A stretch of 64,000 nucleotides of DNA, taken from the NCBI GenBank assembly GCA_010094025.1, contig ML991788.1, forward strand, positions 310,001-374,000, written 5' to 3'. This DNA is from Viridothelium virens (lineage: Eukaryota; Ascomycota; Dothideomycetes; Trypetheliales; Trypetheliaceae). Below are positions 1,492 through 63,900 of the stretch, one piece after another. Made by a program: the position numbers and the translations under genes. The notes below the pieces were generated by a model. The model was not told where the DNA came from. It saw nothing but the letters and a program-made list of their open reading frames with translations, and searched no databases. Positions within the stretch are counted from its first letter, which is position 1. Every line of letters starts with the position of its first letter.

Positions 1492-3840
1492 ATGGCTTCA
1501 AATCTTAAGGCACTCTTGTCTAGTCATGGAAGACGTCTCATCCCAGCCTTGATAGACGAGATAGCGCAAAAAGACGGAAACAGACCATTCATTTCGATCC
1601 CAGTCTCGTCAAAACTGCAAGATGGCTATGCAGATGTTACATTTGCCATTTTCGCTGCTGCTGTAGACCGCACCTGTTGGTGGCTAGAGGAGACCTTGGA
1701 CCGAAGTCGAGCATCGAACGTGCTTTTCTACATCGGCCCACTTGACGTTCGCTACCTTATCTTAATGGTAGCCGCAAACAAGACTGGATATGTTGTAAGT
1801 TTTATTTCCTTAATATTGTCATCCCTTTTGGCTAATCAAAATGACGTCCAGGCTTTCTTCAGCTCGCATCGGAATAGTTTGGAGGCACATTTGTCCTTGC
1901 TTGATGCTACAAATTGTAGCAATGCAATCCTAGCTGAAGGGGCACCAGCCGTGGTGAAGCAGATATTAGCTAAGCGCGCCATGGACGTTAGCTATATCCC
2001 CAATGCGGAATTTCTTCTCAGGAAGGACGAGCTACCGGCGAACTATCCATTCCAAAGGGCATTTGATGACGCGAAGGACGACACATTCGTGGTACTACAT
2101 ACCTCTGGCTCTACAGGTATACCCAAGCCAGTGTTCGTTACACACGGTACCTTTGCCAGCAACGATGCCTACCAGCTCATTCCTAGTCGGGGTGGTAAAC
2201 CTACATTCATAGACTTCCTTCGGGGAAAAAGACTGTTCGTCTCGATGCCTATATTCCATGCAGCCAATCTTGGGATGGTAATGATATCGATATTTGCTGG
2301 ATTCACCTGTGTCCTGCCCCCTGCTGGACCCATGAACGCTGATCAAGTTGACCTCATACATACCTATGGTAATGTTGATGGTTCTTTGTGTCCCCCTTCG
2401 CTTCTTGTAGATATCTACAACGAGCCAAAGTATCTCCAAAACATGGTTAGAAGACTTGACTTTGCTGCTTATGTGGGTGGGACGTTAGCCACGGAAGTGG
2501 GGGGGTTCTTCTCTCACAAATTGAAGCTAATCACTCTCTTTGGGACTACTGAGAACATGTACTTCCCTCTTGAGGTCCACGATAAGCCTGTCAATTGGCA
2601 GTACATGCAGTTCAGCTCATTCCTTGGACATAGCTTTCGGGACTCAACCCAAGACCTAGGAGAACTTGTTATAGTTCGTGATTCGGAGAAAAGCCTCTGG
2701 CAAGGCATCTTTTCAACGTTCCCTGGTATCAATGAGTATGGGACGAAGGATCTGTATGAGCAGCATCCCGACAACAAGAGCCTTCGGCGCTTTTCCCGCA
2801 GAAGCGACGACATCATATGCTTTAACAATGCCGAGAAATTGAACCCAATCACCATGGAGACCATCATCTCCACCCACCAGGCTATCGAATCCGCCATCAT
2901 TGGAGGCAACGGTCAATTCCAAGCATGTCTTCTGATCGAGCCAAAGTCGTATCCTGCAAATCCTGCAGAAGCTCGACATCTGATCGAACAAATCTGGCCT
3001 ACTATCCTCGAAGCAAATAAAGACTGTCCGGCCCACGGTAGGATCGTGAAAGATTTTATCGTGCTCACAACCCGAGATAAGCCTTTGCCAAAGGCTGGGA
3101 AGACAACAGTACAACGCTCCGCAGCCCTGCAACTTTACGCGAAAGAGCTTGAGGCTCTTTATACAAAATTTTCGTCCTCGATGCAAACAAAAACAACGAC
3201 ACAAGCGAGATCAAGCTCTCAACAACGAGGCCTGAACATCCCTCATACGCAAGATGAACAAATTATAAAGCTTGAGGAAGATGACGACTTTCTGTTGCCT
3301 GATTCTACGGATGGGCGAATTGAAAGGGTACTGAAACGGGTTTTGCCCAGCATTCTTGCTCACGCTCTTCGTGTCGTGGCAGATCAGATGTTTGATAATG
3401 GGGCGTCGCCTTTCTTCTATGATAGCACAGTCCCATCTGGAACTCTTGGATCACGTGGTTCTGGATCCCAGTCTCATCAAACTCTTCCAGACGCTCAGCT
3501 TGACAAGCTTGGTGACCCCAGGACAACTATATCCGATCCTATCAAAAACGCGCCACTTACACCGCCATCGAAAGGGTCGCATAACACAGACACGAGGAAT
3601 GAGATGCTTCGAGAAGGGTTATACAGTGCTCTTGCCAATTCGACTTTCCTGCCAAATGTCGCTGACGATGAAAACTTGTTCAATTACGGACTAGACTCTA
3701 TCCAAATGGTGAGCTTCATTCGTAATATCAACGAGTTTTTTGAACGTTCCACCGGGCTAAAGAACGCGGTGCACTCAAAGATCGTTTATGAGAATCCAAG
3801 TATCAAGCAATTGGTTGGCGCTCTCCAGACTGCCACCTAG
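1492..3840 (+). CDS. NRPS-like adenylation-thiolation (A-T) protein without a release domain
   Basis: The 782-codon frame encodes an AMP-binding adenylation domain followed by a phosphopantetheine carrier domain. The P-loop motif HTSGSTGIPKP lies near residue 202 and GTTEN near 350. The carrier motif YGLDSIQMV has its attachment serine near residue 736. The A domain resembles those of fungal NRPS-like A-T-R carboxylic acid reductases, but the protein stops about 45 residues after the serine, with no reductase or thioesterase. A probable intron at 1795-1851 (GTAAGT donor, CTAAT branch, CAG) is 57 nt long and free of stops, so the frame stays open spliced or not; the spliced protein would be 763 aa. 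About 130 residues of low-complexity linker separate the two domains, longer than usual. It may activate and load an aryl or keto acid for a partner enzyme, but no partner lies nearby. The start has ATG in a reasonable context. Domain call firm, function inferred. Confidence 0.85.
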   Translation: MASNLKALLSSHGRRLIPALIDEIAQKDGNRPFISIPVSSKLQDGYADVTFAIFAAAVDRTCWWLEETLDRSRASNVLFYIGPLDVRYLILMVAANKTGYVVSFISLILSSLLANQNDVQAFFSSHRNSLEAHLSLLDATNCSNAILAEGAPAVVKQILAKRAMDVSYIPNAEFLLRKDELPANYPFQRAFDDAKDDTFVVLHTSGSTGIPKPVFVTHGTFASNDAYQLIPSRGGKPTFIDFLRGKRLFVSMPIFHAANLGMVMISIFAGFTCVLPPAGPMNADQVDLIHTYGNVDGSLCPPSLLVDIYNEPKYLQNMVRRLDFAAYVGGTLATEVGGFFSHKLKLITLFGTTENMYFPLEVHDKPVNWQYMQFSSFLGHSFRDSTQDLGELVIVRDSEKSLWQGIFSTFPGINEYGTKDLYEQHPDNKSLRRFSRRSDDIICFNNAEKLNPITMETIISTHQAIESAIIGGNGQFQACLLIEPKSYPANPAEARHLIEQIWPTILEANKDCPAHGRIVKDFIVLTTRDKPLPKAGKTTVQRSAALQLYAKELEALYTKFSSSMQTKTTTQARSSSQQRGLNIPHTQDEQIIKLEEDDDFLLPDSTDGRIERVLKRVLPSILAHALRVVADQMFDNGASPFFYDSTVPSGTLGSRGSGSQSHQTLPDAQLDKLGDPRTTISDPIKNAPLTPPSKGSHNTDTRNEMLREGLYSALANSTFLPNVADDENLFNYGLDSIQMVSFIRNINEFFERSTGLKNAVHSKIVYENPSIKQLVGALQTAT

Positions 3841-16596: not shown

Positions 16597-18857
16597 ATGT
16601 CCGGCCAGCTGGTCCAGAATGCTCCGAAGTCTTTCACCGACGTCAGCATGTCGAGTATTATCAAAGAAATCTTTGACTCGATTTCTCTCAACCCAGGCTT
16701 ATAGCAGAGGGCCTTTAGAGGTTCGGAATGTCTTGTGCATTATTGCATGCAATAGATAGAGTTGCAGCATTAGTAACCAATGATGTAGCCACCACTCCTT
16801 GAGCAAACTATTGGGCAGCATTTTGCATCTATCGTCTCTGAATATGGAGACCGTTTAGCGTAAGAGTGCCCACGGGCCACACTCGATCGTACTTCTAATT
16901 AATTACGGCTAAAGGGTCATATCGAGTGCTCAAAAGAGCCGACTTACGTATGATGCCCTCGATACAGCTAGCAATGCACTTGCTCGGGGACTGAAAGCAA
17001 GGGGAATCAAAAAGGGAGATCGTGTTGCGGTCTCCCTGGGAAATAATGTCGAATATGCTACGGTCAGTACTCATCTTGAAGCCAAGATTCAAGAGAACGA
17101 AATATTCAAGCTTATCAGACAACTTATGCGTTATTCAAACTTGGAGCTATTCTTGTACGTAACATCCTTTTGATCTGTGGTCCCGTATTACTCTAATGTC
17201 GAAGACCTAGGTTCCCCTAAATCCCGCATTCAATGGTCCACAGGTCATTTCTGCATTGAATCACCTCTCCTCATCCCATCTCATAATCGGCGCCGAGACC
17301 AATCTCCCCTACAAAGACCCCCGCTCCAACATCCCCCTACTCACCCAACTCGTCCCCAACCTCCACAGCCCCAAACTCGAATCCGAGACCGTCCCCTCCC
17401 TCCAAACCATCATCCTCGTCAACAACTCCTCCAGCCGCCTCGACCGCCACCCCCTCAAAGCCACCACCCCCTACGAGCACCTCCTCGAAGACGGCCAGCC
17501 CGGCAGCGGTGCCCTCCCCGACCAGCAGCACCTCTCCCCCACCGACACCATCAACATCCAATTCACCTCCGGCACCACCTCCCTCCCCAAAGCCGCCTGC
17601 CTCACCCACCGCAGCATCCTCAACAACGGCCGCGCCATCGGCGACCGCATGCTCCTGACCCCGAACGACATCGTCTGCTGCCCGCCTCCGCTCTTCCACT
17701 GCTTCGGCTGCATCCTCGGCTACATGGCGACTGCGACCCATGGCGCTGCCATCGTCTTCCCCGCTGAAGCCTTCGACCCCGCTGCGACGCTGCGCGCGGT
17801 GCGCGACGAGCGTGCGACTGCACTGTATGGCGTGCCTACGATGTTTGTCGCTGAGCTTGAGCTCATTGGTGGTGGTGGGAAGGAGGAGGTGGGGAGGGGG
17901 CCTGGGGTGGGCGAGACTGCGTTTCACCCGGAGGAAGATTTTCGCAGTCTGAGGACGGGGATTGCGGCGGGGAGTAGTATCCCTGCGGAGCTGATGCGTA
18001 AGCTGCATCGGGTGCTGAATTTGACGGAGTTGACGATTTGTTATGGGATGACGGAGACGAGTCCTGTGAGTGCGATGACGACGACGGATGATCCCATGGA
18101 GAAGAGGGTGGATAGTGTGGGGAGGTTACTGCCGCATGTGGAGGCGAAGGTGGTGGATGTGGGGGATCGGGGACGGGTGTTGAGGTGTGGCGAAAGGGGG
18201 GAGTTGGTGGTGAGTGGGTATTGCGTTATGGAAGGCTATTGGGGGGACGAGGAGAAGACGAGGGAGGTGAGGGTTGTGGACAAGGAGGGTAAGGTGTGGA
18301 TGCATGTGAGTTCTCTAACATTTTTTTCGCCAGACGGTTAGGCTCGGAGAAGGACGAACCTACTGACGGAGCTCGAGTATAGACTGGAGATGAAGCCTCG
18401 ATGGACGACGAGGGGTATATTCGCATTACGGGTCGCATCAAAGACCTTATCATTCGCGGTGGAGAGAATATCCATCCCCTTGAAATTGAAAACTGCCTCT
18501 TCGCCCACCCGGCCATTGCCGAAGCCTCCGTCGTAGGTCTTCCTGACAAAAGATATGGTGAAGTTGTCGCAGCTTTCATTGTGAGGCATAGCGATAGTCG
18601 GGAAGAGGCTCTACTCGATGCCGTTGAGGTAAGAGAATGGGTAAAAAAGCGACTGAGTAATCATCTTGGTGAGTTTCACGGTTGAGGGTGCCTCCACCAT
18701 TGTGCCAATGTGCTAAGATTTCTGGGTCATAGTACCGCAATGTGTATTCTGGATCGATTCAGCAGCATTTCCGAAGACAGCAAGTGGTAAGATTCAGAAA
18801 TTTAAGCTACGTGATATGGGTCAGGAAATGCAACAGAAAGGACTCGGATTGGATTGA
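16597..18857 (+). CDS. Acyl-CoA synthetase, medium-chain/ACSF2-like AMP-forming ligase
   Basis: I read eight exons (16597-16641, 16697-16720, 16789-16859, 16915-17062, 17119-17154, 17211-18305, 18383-18668, 18733-18857), 1830 nt, 609 aa, in phase throughout. Motifs: SYSRGP-type start region read as AYSRGPLEPPLLEQTIG, GDRVAVSLGNNVEYA, the AMP-binding loop FTSGTTSLPKAACLTHRS (about 225-242), YGMTETSP, GRIKDLIIRGGENIHP and the catalytic-lysine ending SGKIQKFKLRD. The family makes acyl-CoA thioesters from fatty or aryl acids with ATP. In TSGTTSLPK the usual glycine after TT is serine. The first three exons are small; the donor GTTCGG after exon 2 and GTCAGC after exon 1 are weak, so the N-terminus is the least certain part. 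No C-terminal peroxisomal tripeptide is seen (ends GLGLD). Confidence 0.87.
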
Positions 18858-19816: not shown

Positions 19817-21681
19817 ATGCCATTCTTTCCACCATCATGGATGCCGCCGCTACCTCACGATCCTCCGGATTCGATTACTATTCATGATTTTATGTTGGAC
19901 GAGATATGGGGTCGACATCCTCTGGGTTACTCGCGAAATCCTTTCACATGCGGTCTCTCCGGCAGAACCTACTCCGCTCTCGAAGTAAAAGAGCGTACAG
20001 ATTATCTTGCTCGGGGCTTAGCAAAGGAGCTGGGCTGGCAGCCAAATAAGGGAGCTGAGTGGGACAAAGTCATTGGAGTCTTTTCCGTAAATACGGTCAG
20101 TCAAAACGTCGAATTGAGCTTCCAGATCACGTCTCATGGGCAGCTAGATCGACACAATCACATTGGCATGGGCAACACATAGATTGGGCGGCATTCAAAC
20201 ACCAGCCAATGCTGCATATTCCACTCTCGAGCTTGTCCATCAACTTAAAGATTCCGGTGCGAAATGTCTCTTCACATGCGGGCCCCTTCTCAACACAGCC
20301 CTAGAAGCTGCATCTCAAGTCGGCATGCCAAAAAACCGCATCTACATGTTGGAATTGCCAAAGGAGGCAACTGGTGGCCAACCTACACCAAATGGATACA
20401 AAACTCTTGATGATTTGATCAAAGAAGGCTCGCAGCAACCACGGTTGGAGCACTTGAATTTGCAGAAGGGGGACGGCGCGAAAAGGACGGCTTTTCTCTG
20501 CTATTCAAGCGGCACTTCCGGACTGCCGGTGTGTAGTTGTTGGCATCTTTCATAAACTCGTAGAGCTGACAAGATTTCAGAAAGGCGTTATGATCTCGCA
20601 CCGAAACGTGATTGCCAACACAATACAGATGACAACATTTGACCGACCCACGCGAGATCCCAAGAAAGCACCCGGTACCGTCTCCGACTACACAGAAACC
20701 TGCCTCGGCCTCCTCCCAATGTCACACATCTACGGCCTCGTCGTTATCTGCCACGTCAGCCTGTACCGCGGCGACCAAGTCATCGTGCTCCCACGCTTCG
20801 AATTCCGACCCTTCCTCTCCGCCATCCAAACCCACCACATCAACCTGCTGTACCTCGTCCCGCCCATCATCATCAACATGGTCAACAACCAGTCGCTGCT
20901 CGCGGAGTACGACCTCAGCAGCATCGACGCCATCTTCACCGGCGCGGCGCCCCTCGGCAAAGAGACCGCCGAAGACCTCCTCCGCATCTTCCCCTCCTGG
21001 ACCGTCCGCCAGGGCTACGGCCTCACCGAGACCTGCACCGTCGTGTGCACCACTTCGCCCGCCGACGTCTGGCTCGGCAGCTGCGGCAGCCTGCTCCCGG
21101 GCTACGAAGCCCGCATCGTGACGATCGAGGGCACGGAAGTCACGGGCTACGACCAGCCGGGGGAGCTCGTGGTTAGGAGCCCCTCGATCGTGCTGGGGTA
21201 TCTGAATAATGATCAGGCGAATCGCGAGACGTTTCAGGATGGCTGGATGCGTACGGGGGACGAGGCGGTGGTGAGGCGCAATCCGGAGTCGGGGCATGAG
21301 CATGTCTTTATTGTGGATCGCATCAAGGAGTTGATTAAGGTGAAGGGGCTGCAGGTGGCGCCGGCGGAGTTGGAGGCGCATCTCCTAACCCATTCGGCAG
21401 TGGGAGATTGCGCGGTGATTCCTGTGCCGGATGATGCGGCGGGGGAGGTGCCCATGGCGTTTGTGGTGAAGAGCTCGAAGGTAGGGATTGAGGATAGTGA
21501 GGCGGGACTGAGGAGGGAGATTGTCAAGCATGTGGAGAAGCACAAGGCGAGGCATAAGTGGTTGAAGGGTGGGGTGAAGTTCATTGACGCGGTTCCCAAG
21601 AGTCCGAGTGGGAAGATTCTGAGAAGGCTACTGAGGGACAAGGAGAGGGAGGCTCGGCGGCAGGAGGGCCCTAAGTTGTGA
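19817..21681 (+). CDS. 4-coumarate-CoA ligase-like acyl-CoA synthetase
   Basis: Three exons (19817-20095, 20148-20528, 20581-21681) encode 586 aa; introns are 52 nt each. Motifs: GLSGRTYSALEVKERTDYLA near the N-terminus, HRLGGIQTPANAAYS, the AMP-binding loop SSGTSGLPKGVMISHRN (about 214-230), GYGLTETC (about 366), DRIKELIKVKGLQVAP and the lysine motif KSPSGKILRRLL. The layout is that of fungal 4CL-like ligases, many of which are peroxisomal. The C-terminus is PKL, which resembles but does not match the canonical PTS1 (S/A/C-K/R/H-L). The substrate is not readable. It lies in tandem with a ligase of another subfamily, so it is not a recent duplicate. An antisense frame over 20722-21381 is a shadow caused by C-ending codons. 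Confidence 0.9.
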
Positions 21682-61828: not shown

Positions 61829-62886
61829 CGCGTGTAAAACCGCATCAGTCCAGGTATGAGTCTGGCACGATCGTAACCTCTCCCGCCTACGCCGCTTCCG
61901 GGGGTAACGCTAATGCAGAGGCGCGGTGACTGTCTCACGAGGAACGGACACGGAAGTGGGGTTCGCACCTCAAAGGGCGTGGAAGAGACATCCTTTAAGC
62001 TGTTGTGCAGAATGGCAAGGCTCCCATGAGGCTTTCCCGAGCCTCGTCCAACCGCCACCGACGGGTGTCAATCCAAATGTCCGCCGAGGTAAACCCGGCC
62101 CAAATCCCATCCGCCGATTCAGCTATTTTGAAGCTGCCAATAGCTTTCATCTTTTTAGTTTTTGGTGGTCCAGCTAGTAAAGAGTGCACGTTGGTAACTT
62201 CATAGAATAATGAGACGGAAGCGCTATCTAGGTACTGATTAGCTTCAAATCTAAGGTGCGGGCGCCAGTTGCGCCCGCGCACGTTTTGGTTGACACACCC
62301 TGGTGGCTGAATGGGGCGATGCTGGACCTTGCACGTCCGGGTTTGAACCCATTTTCACTAGGACGACCTAGTCAATCCCCATCCTAGTAGAGACCCTTAA
62401 TTCCGTCCCATTCTCCATCCTATTACTAGGACGGAATGGGATCAGGATGGGAATCCCCGTCCTATTGTGATCACTACGTTTTTCTGTGTATTTTTCCCTA
62501 TATATCTAATAAATTCTGTAAATTATATAAGTTTCGTGATTTTCGCTTTTATAAAGTCTGATTTTGGTTATGTGACTTGATCATGTAATTGATCTCATAA
62601 ATACGGCAGCTTCAGTCGCAATACATATTAGTAAGCCAAGTCTCAAAAGGCATTAACTTTCTAATCAATACATGTTAGGTAATGTAGCTTATATTGAAGT
62701 GTAGCGCGAAAGCTAACTTAAATATTTACGATCCACATGCGAAAATTAAAGGTCTGTGAGATGAGATATTGGACTGCGAAGTCGCGCACTGTAGTAAATT
62801 TTGATGTTCTTCGCCAATTTTTTTATCTAACAGTCTCTGCAAAACAAGGTCATATTATAGATAAGAGTTTTTCCGCCAATCTCGAC
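61829..62886. other. Intergenic: STAND promoter, SINE-like piece, AT-rich tract
   Basis: No protein gene is seen. 62480-62720 is AT-rich. The tRNA gene follows. Confidence 0.4.
62297..62475. repeat. tRNA-derived, SINE-like sequence
   Basis: An A-box-like TGGCTGAATGGG (62303-62314) and a B-box-like GGGTTTGAACCC (62339-62350) lie 25 bases apart, with a short stem GGAC/GTCC between. The tRNA cloverleaf cannot be completed. Downstream, words such as ATCCTA, GGACGGAATGGGAT and CCGTCCCATTC recur in direct and inverted order to about 62475. A tRNA head with an unrelated body fits a SINE; a decayed tRNA gene is the alternative. Confidence 0.45.
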
Positions 62887-63010
62887 AGCTCGATGGCGCA
62901 GCGGAAGCGCGGTAAGTTTAAACATATCCCCTATCTTGAGTAAGATACTAATTTGTGCTGCAGCCGGGCTCATAACCCGGAGGTCGCTGGATCGAAACCA
63001 GCTCGAGCTA
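62887..63010 (+). tRNA. Initiator tRNA-Met (CAT) with a 52-nt insert at position 26/27
   Basis: Without the insert the gene is 72 nt plus discriminator-length fit to fungal initiators. Acceptor stem AGCTCGA/TCGAGCT is perfect, with the initiator pair A1:T72. D stem GCGC/GCGC, then G26. The anticodon stem CCGGG/CCCGG with three G:C pairs holds loop CTCATAA, anticodon CAT. The T stem GCTGG/CCAGC holds ATCGAAA, with A54 and A60 as only initiators have. A-box TGGCGCAGCGG and B-box GGATCGAAACC are intact, and A73 follows. Between G26 (62911) and the anticodon stem (62964) lies a 52-nt insert with GTAAGT start, TACTAAT branch-like word and TGCAG end. Known eukaryotic tRNA introns sit at 37/38 instead. 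It may be a functional gene with an odd intron or an interrupted copy. Confidence 0.88.
62912..62963 (+). other. Spliceosomal-type intron-like insert within the tRNA gene
   Basis: 52 nt, GTAAGT at the 5' end, TACTAAT 16-17 bases before the 3' end, and GCTGCAG at the end. Size and all three signals match the window's protein-gene introns. It has no bulge-helix-bulge-like pairing with the anticodon arm that I can see. Confidence 0.7.
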
Positions 63011-63011
63011 A

Positions 63012-63020
63012 TTTTTTTTT
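63012..63020 (+). terminator. RNA polymerase III T-run terminator
   Basis: Nine T in a row begin two bases after the tRNA discriminator base, a strong Pol III stop. Confidence 0.8.
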
Positions 63021-63720
63021 GGGTCTAGACTAGGCCCGGAATGTAATCACTCTTTTCTTTTGAGAAGCTTCCATCGTGTATCTGAATGCGCGACATGAGA
63101 GGCCTATCCCTTGCGCTGGTGGGCTGCCGCGCACTGATCATGGAGCACTAAATTCGGGCAATTGGTAAACAACAACAAGCTACACCACGGTTTAACACAC
63201 GAAGAACTTCATTAATTCTTGTCCAATATTATTAATTTGTGTATTATGTGAACCGCTCTGATGGGTCACAACCCACTACTTCCGTCTAAAACAAACACGC
63301 GCTCGTCCTTAGTCACCACCTGAATTTTAGCTCTATGCCTTGACACCTTTCTCAGAGAGTACATGCTAGGCTGCCTGCAGAGGTTAATACCTCCTTATCT
63401 CTTGACATATTCATCCTGTTCTTCACAAAGGGTACTCTTGAGCTACTCGCTGCCTATACAAAGAACTACACAAGCTAGGGAACTACGCTAGCTGCAGTGT
63501 AGCTGGTGCGAAGCGTAATAAACGCACACAATTAATAACCCTTATACAGGGGAAGCTGTTATAGGACTTACGGCCGAACTCGATTAAATAAGGTCTCGTC
63601 TAAAAGAGAACTCCGTAGAGCTCCATGGAGTGTTCTCTCTGGGAGCTGCCTCTCTGCGAAGCCGAGCAGTATTGGCAGAAACACCTTCATGCAGCTGCAG
63701 ATAGGCAGGAAACACCTTTA
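63021..63720. other. Unassigned sequence, repeat-like
   Basis: No protein motif. A short hairpin, AGAGAACTCC with GGAGTGTTCTCT, lies at about 63606-63639, and a 16-base unit around GGCAGAAACACCTT/GGCAGGAAACACCTTTA recurs at 63673 and 63703. It may be repetitive DNA, unidentified. Confidence 0.35.
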
Positions 63721-63900
63721 TACAGCTAAAAATTCTCACATTTCAAGGCGGAATTTTCAGAGACCCGAAGTCTGATAAAAATGAGCTGTTGTTATACCGA
63801 GTGACGTTTTGAGACACGTCAGCGAAGCAGACGTTGCGTAATCCTGACCTGCAGAACCCATGCAAGGTCTGTTAAGTTACTGACCCGGCTTCAAGATTAC
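63721..63900 (+). pseudogene. Decayed copy of the trypsin-fold gene tail
   Basis: It aligns over about 180 bases with the end of intron 2, exon 3 and the 3' flank of the gene at 38574-39767 (segment 38513-38695, opposite strand). Shared words include GGCGGAATTTTCAGAGACCC, ATACCGAGTGA, GTTTTGAGACACGTCA, GCAAGGTCTGTTA and the final TCAAGATTAC, where similarity stops. Substitutions and small length changes disrupt the coding frame. The rest of the gene is not recognisable upstream. Differences are mixed, not the pure C-to-T pattern of RIP. Confidence 0.8.

Follow-up and report, generated by a model that had tools for sequence, protein, structure and literature searches.

How can an initiator tRNA be made from a nuclear gene that is interrupted, after tRNA position 26, by a sequence resembling an mRNA intron? 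In textbooks, the removal of tRNA introns is assigned to an enzyme other than the mRNA splicing machine. The gene lies in a window of 64,000 nt (contig positions 310001-374000) from Viridothelium virens, which we take to be a lichen-forming fungus, and the assembly searched comprised 30.72 Mb in 175 contigs. One protein encoded in the window shows 86% identity to a Trypethelium subeluteriae MAG protein; its next named match, from Bathelium mastoideum, stands at 72%, and other named Dothideomycetes lie near 50%. A second protein is 96% identical to T. subeluteriae, and a third matches a T. eluteriae MAG protein at 100% identity over 97% of the query. T. eluteriae is a lichen-forming member of the Trypetheliaceae (Dothideomycetes), and the host is very probably close to it. 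Our analysis indicated that the insert is very probably a spliceosomal intron interrupting a nuclear tRNA gene of the Pol III type, that it belongs to a set of 22 found across 20 recovered genes, and that the spliceosome would remove it. Transcription by Pol III, the splicing itself and the spliceosome as its agent are what we infer from the sequence.

The initiator tRNA-Met locus

The gene was located at positions 62887-63010 of the window, on the plus strand like all its elements described here. Exon 1 (62887-62911) supplies tRNA positions 1-26 and contains an unbroken A box (TGGCGCAGCGG, 62894-62904). Exon 2 (62964-63010) supplies positions 27-73, with the anticodon CAT, an initiator-type B box (GGATCGAAACC, 62989-62999) and the discriminator A at 63010. 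Both exons were assigned from the sequence and from ARAGORN on the spliced form. A TATA-like element, TATAGA, matching TATAWA at five of six bases, is found at 62856-62861, 31 nt before the 5' end of the tRNA, and a run of nine T of the Pol III terminator type is found at 63012-63020. The exons are separated by a 52-nt insert at 26/27 (62912-62963), which excision tests, splice signals and the lack of a bulge-helix-bulge (BHB) motif mark as an intron of the spliceosomal type. It begins with the 5' splice site GTAAGT (62912-62917), a full match to the consensus, carries a branch-point-like TACTAAT (62946-62952) with the branch A 12 nt before the intron end, and finishes with the 3' splice site GCAG (62960-62963). 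The spliced product has A1:T72, A54, A60 and three G:C pairs adjoining the CTCATAA loop. The first-pass annotation, which had described a complete initiator tRNA-Met with a 52-nt insert carrying these three signals, was right in its coordinates and its motifs, and the same kind of insert was found in 19 other tRNA genes.

ARAGORN reported tRNA-Met(cat) for the spliced form. For the unspliced gene, it reported a wrong tRNA-Ile(aat) when introns were allowed and no tRNA when they were not, and at default settings it found no tRNA in the 64-kb window. The Rfam tRNA model gave one marginal match in the window (30.9 bits against a cut-off of 29). We then scored 1299 excisions of 30-110 nt from the initiator gene without regard to their boundaries. 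A single product held the best tRNA score; two one-base slides lead to it, and one of them gives exactly GT...AG. Downstream of the gene, an imperfect 19-nt direct repeat with 31-nt spacing was seen at window positions 63678-63727.

An insert that stayed in place would break the tRNA, and the first-pass annotation had considered that this gene might be a dead copy, recently hit. We searched the whole assembly for each half of the initiator with up to three mismatches, a search blind to more strongly diverged copies and to any that are split within the pattern. The 3' half matched the window locus alone, and the 5' half matched this locus and one place with three mismatches (L033), where ARAGORN found no tRNA. 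Apart from the interrupted gene, the assembly thus yielded no initiator locus. Because only this one was recovered, a dead copy is unlikely, and the same interruption of 19 other genes also disfavours it.

Further copies of the insert were not seen. A 201-bp query spanning it matched only itself in the assembly (in a search that skips very common words), and BLAST of the insert against the window and the other tRNA introns returned no further copy. Among the 22 introns, BLAST at an E-value of 0.01 gave two related Asp introns and one 11-nt match, nothing more. Copies of a mobile insert were rejected, because the query matched only itself and the introns gave no matches beyond these. The initiator 3' half had no match in separate collections of genome contigs and viral contigs; a split Asp gene in the genome-contig collection and a split Lys gene in the viral-contig collection had none either.

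Interrupted tRNA genes across the assembly

The genome-wide survey started from an intron-agnostic pattern of a B box plus T5, which gave 32 nuclear places, and all of them were examined. A full T stem was present in 27, and all 27 resolved to a tRNA above every shuffled control; five places (L067, L070, L083, L085, L091) had incomplete T stems and yielded no tRNA. The best model contained a GT-AG excision outside 37/38 for 17 of the 27 loci and none for 10, with Ser-CGA nearly undecided (31.6 with excision and 31.5 without). Three more interrupted genes (the initiator Met in the window, Val-TAC and elongator Met) and four more uninterrupted ones (Arg-CCG, Gln-CTG, Ala-TGC, Lys-TTT) were recovered. 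In total, 20 of the 34 recovered nuclear tRNA genes are interrupted, by 22 introns spread over 17 contigs, and Arg-TCT and Asn-GTT carry two introns each. The uninterrupted loci are L065, L066, L076, L078, L082, L084, L089, L090, L095, L096 and L104-L107. The first-pass annotation had proposed a single event in one tRNA gene; the interruption stands, but its isolation does not, since the pattern is genome-wide.

The recovered set is incomplete: Phe, Tyr, Ile-AAT, Gly-GCC and others are missing, introns in the T arm are invisible to a B-box search, and intact copies of the non-initiator genes could have escaped the survey. With a W52:W62 B-box pattern, 100 of 356 places were listed, and three of those 100 passed the T-stem filter (2/51 and 1/49). 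Two further lists of places contributed 29 passing among 66 nuclear rows (from a list of 71) and 2 among 71. For 63 of the 927 first-look candidates a score was obtained. Of nine extra places whose T stem is complete (L097-L103, L111 and C32:239733), two proved to be tRNAs, L101 and L102.

We submitted the interrupted genes to ARAGORN in both forms. All 20 spliced forms were called as a tRNA, 17 of them with the intended anticodon (the misses being Asp-GTC-2, Ser-GCT and Val-TAC). For the unspliced forms, something was called in 15 of 20 when introns were allowed, and the anticodon was the intended one in 2; with introns off, none of the 20 gave a call. After excision, these genes give the full cloverleaf with a usable anticodon that is expected of a nuclear tRNA gene.

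Signals of the Pol III type, as expected of nuclear tRNA genes, were also found. TATAWA at -45 to -25 occurs in 11 of the 20 interrupted genes, the initiator gene not among them, and in 4 of the 14 uninterrupted genes, against 0-1 in each of five control windows. A run of at least five T starting within 20 nt downstream follows 20/20 interrupted genes, a count that is partly built in because 17 were found through the T5 pattern. The A box is broken by some introns, for example at 12/13 in Lys-CTT, and several D-arm cases split it. Trp-CCA, whose insert holds a T6 that could stop Pol III, is the weakest case for this polymerase; Pro-CGG has a T5 inside the gene. The U6 snRNA is encoded by three full-length copies without introns, L108-L110 (C116:32817-32916, C51:305-404 and C38:47563-47662), and thus some Pol III genes are spared.

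Both Asp genes are interrupted at 24/25, by introns with 87% identity over 30 nt. The exons of the two genes differ at the pairs 4:69, 7:66 and 50:64, where both partners have changed. Because paired stem positions changed on both sides, both genes look maintained as tRNAs. If the interrupted genes in general were dead copies recently hit by insertions, this would apply to 20 of the 34 recovered genes, among them those for Asp, Asn, Trp and elongator Met, of which every recovered copy is interrupted. The exons nevertheless still fold as tRNAs, and the diverging Asp paralogues keep both their splice signals and their stem pairing. We therefore regard death of these genes as highly improbable.

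Three side observations were made during the survey. The uninterrupted locus L065 (C1:423895-423981) has an anticodon read as GTG and a D arm unlike that of the other His gene. At C32:239733-239759 (minus strand, L082), directly upstream of an intact His gene, there is a T-arm-like half whose stem is paired; the excision pipeline gave no 5' half for it (21.4, below the highest shuffled control), and it is perhaps a relic. Contig C129 (34.6 kb) is dense in tRNA genes and was taken as the mitochondrial genome.

Splice signals and intron boundaries

The 22 introns were found at 12/13, in the D loop, at 23/24, 24/25, 26/27, 30/31, 31/32, 32/33, 33/34 and 34/35, and in the variable arm. None is at 37/38, and none belongs to the canonical class defined by that site. 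Their lengths are 46-64 nt, except for one of 99 nt, with a median of 51. Group I and group II introns were rejected on length alone, 46-64 nt being too short. Ordinary 37/38 introns of 7-35 nt exist separately in 14 of the 20 interrupted genes; the genes without one are the initiator Met, Arg-CCT, Ala-AGC, Arg-ACG, Lys-CTT and Thr-CGT.

GT-AG ends are present in 22/22 by construction. Outside the boundary choice, we found G at +5 in 20 of 22 and a purine at +3 in 19, which is the extended 5' splice site of spliceosomal (U2-type) introns, and a pyrimidine at -3 in 20. CTRAY at branch distance, the branch point of the same intron type, was found in 18 of 22, compared with 3.95 ± 1.81 in shuffled sequences, and none of 2000 shuffles reached 18; it is missing in Trp, Ala-CGC, Ser-AGA and Thr-CGT. 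The 14 introns at 37/38 of the same genes have neither GT...AG ends nor CTRAY, a weak control given their length of only 7-35 nt. We also compared the inserts with mRNA introns of the RhoGEF and urea-transporter genes in the window. These five in-frame introns are 52, 60, 103, 56 and 47 nt long and start with GTAAGC, GTAAGT, GTTCGT, GTATGT and GTATGT (GTNNG throughout), and in four of them YTRAY lies 13 nt from the end. In this small sample of five introns from two genes, the tRNA inserts are like the host's mRNA introns in both length and signals.

The excision pipeline accepted any GT...AG pair 36-160 nt apart and up to two introns per gene, and such freedom might produce GT-AG introns by chance, or the inserts might be assembly artefacts. 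However, shuffled upstream DNA reached at most 27.4 in 324 runs, against a minimum of 29.6 for the 27 real loci. For those 17 introns that lie outside the anticodon arm, we also scored all excisions of 30-110 nt with a tRNA score blind to splice signals. GT-AG was in the top-scoring tie for 10 of the 17, and the next commonest of the 256 boundary pairs for 3. When all excisions scoring no more than one unit below the best were counted, GT-AG was found for 17/17 and the next pair for 8. With shuffled inserts, the expectation for GT-AG was 0.58 of 17. In seven of the 17 (Trp, Leu, Ala-CGC, Gln, Ala-AGC, Ser-GCT and Ser-AGA), between 1 and 22 other excisions scored slightly better. The enriched branch points and +5 G lie outside the boundary choice, and the 20 genes are on 17 contigs. 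An origin in search freedom or misassembly is thus exceedingly improbable.

Among the five introns of the anticodon arm, that of Arg-ACG and the second of Asn were top scoring. The other three were not favoured, with 6 better excisions for the second Arg-TCT intron, 10 for Ser-CGA and 82 for elongator Met, and for Arg-TCT the one-intron model outscored the model with two (31.6 against 31.0). The rankings of the three are due in part to the parser, which can absorb such inserts as long 37/38 introns. The three introns rest on splice signals and on canonical tRNA sequences.

Introns outside 37/38 are known in nuclear tRNA genes of Cyanidioschyzon merolae, where they lie in the D arm, the anticodon arm and elsewhere; in passages of PMC3978253 and PMC9602550, introns are reported for 23 of its 43 nuclear tRNA genes. 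The present inserts might likewise be ectopic introns cut by the tRNA splicing endonuclease at BHB motifs, as in this alga and in archaea. Since ordinary 37/38 introns coexist with the inserts, the endonuclease should be present. The passages of PMC3978253 and PMC9602550 describe BHB motifs for C. merolae; in contrast, the inserts here have GT-AG ends and branch points, and we found a BHB at 0/22 exact boundaries and at 0/22 within 3 nt (shuffles, 0.14 and 0.88), using a simple geometry of a 4-bp centre and a flanking helix of at least 2 bp. Moreover, GT, AG, the branch point and the 5' splice-site consensus are enriched although the enzyme needs none of them. Removal by the endonuclease is therefore very unlikely.

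Proposed processing and related systems

For splicing by the spliceosome, we propose the following course. Pol III would transcribe the gene through the intron, directed by the A and B boxes and the upstream TATA and stopped at the T-run terminator. The spliceosome would read the 5' splice site, the branch point and the 3' splice site and excise the intron, and the joined exons would fold into the initiator tRNA. Where an ordinary 37/38 intron is present as well, in 14 of the 20 genes, it would additionally be cut out by the tRNA endonuclease. The first-pass annotation had suggested an intron-like element spliced by an unusual route; our results support this, and very probably it is the ordinary spliceosome that processes these tRNA precursors.

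mRNA-type introns are found in the U6 snRNA genes of some yeasts (Schizosaccharomyces, Rhodosporidium). Those are also spliceosomal and in a Pol III transcript, but they interrupt an snRNA and not a tRNA, and the three U6 copies of the present host are intronless. Bhattacharya et al. reportedly described, in 2000, spliceosomal introns in the nuclear rDNA of lichen fungi. According to passages of PMC8527467 and PMC6652019, such rDNA introns resemble the present ones in being of mRNA type, in a gene not transcribed by Pol II, dependent on the host splicing machinery and found in lichen-forming ascomycetes, and one of them in Cladonia grayi is 57 bp long. Ectopic spliceosomal introns of lichen rDNA are removed, also from Pol I transcripts in yeast (passages of PMC8527467). 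They differ in residing in rRNA, a Pol I product, and the main text of PMC8527467 contains no mention of tRNA. Canonical eukaryotic tRNA introns, which occur in 14 of the 20 interrupted genes, differ in position, length and signals and are removed by the endonuclease and not by the spliceosome (in a passage of PMC13149111). For another lichen fungus, Endocarpon pusillum, 72 tRNAs by tRNAscan-SE are given in a passage of PMC3897900, and thus not all lichens need share the feature. In the open-access literature of PMC, which excludes subscription journals and preprints, we found no account of nuclear tRNA genes that carry spliceosomal introns.

If confirmed, these introns would mean that a further major class of RNA has been colonised by spliceosomal introns at large scale, that the spliceosome is able to act on short, fast-folding transcripts of the Pol III type, and that one tRNA can be processed by two unrelated splicing machines. 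More tentatively, it is conceivable that most nuclear tRNAs of this fungus, including the sole initiator, depend on the spliceosome, that many precursors need the endonuclease too, and that standard scanners undercount its tRNAs. The supply of tRNAs, and with it translation, might then depend on the capacity of the spliceosome, possibly providing a brake that fits the slow, desiccation-prone growth of lichens. The genes would offer a natural system for studying spliceosome recruitment without a Pol II tail and intron gain in structural RNAs, and for asking whether intron load tunes lichen growth, as is proposed for rDNA introns in passages of PMC8527467. tRNA finders miss or misname genes interrupted in this way.

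The window also contains, within 20 kb, three genes for AMP-binding enzymes (1492-3840, 17256-18341 and 20590-21681). The first has a carrier domain and the third is plain, and the second was judged by eye. A biosynthetic cluster is possible.
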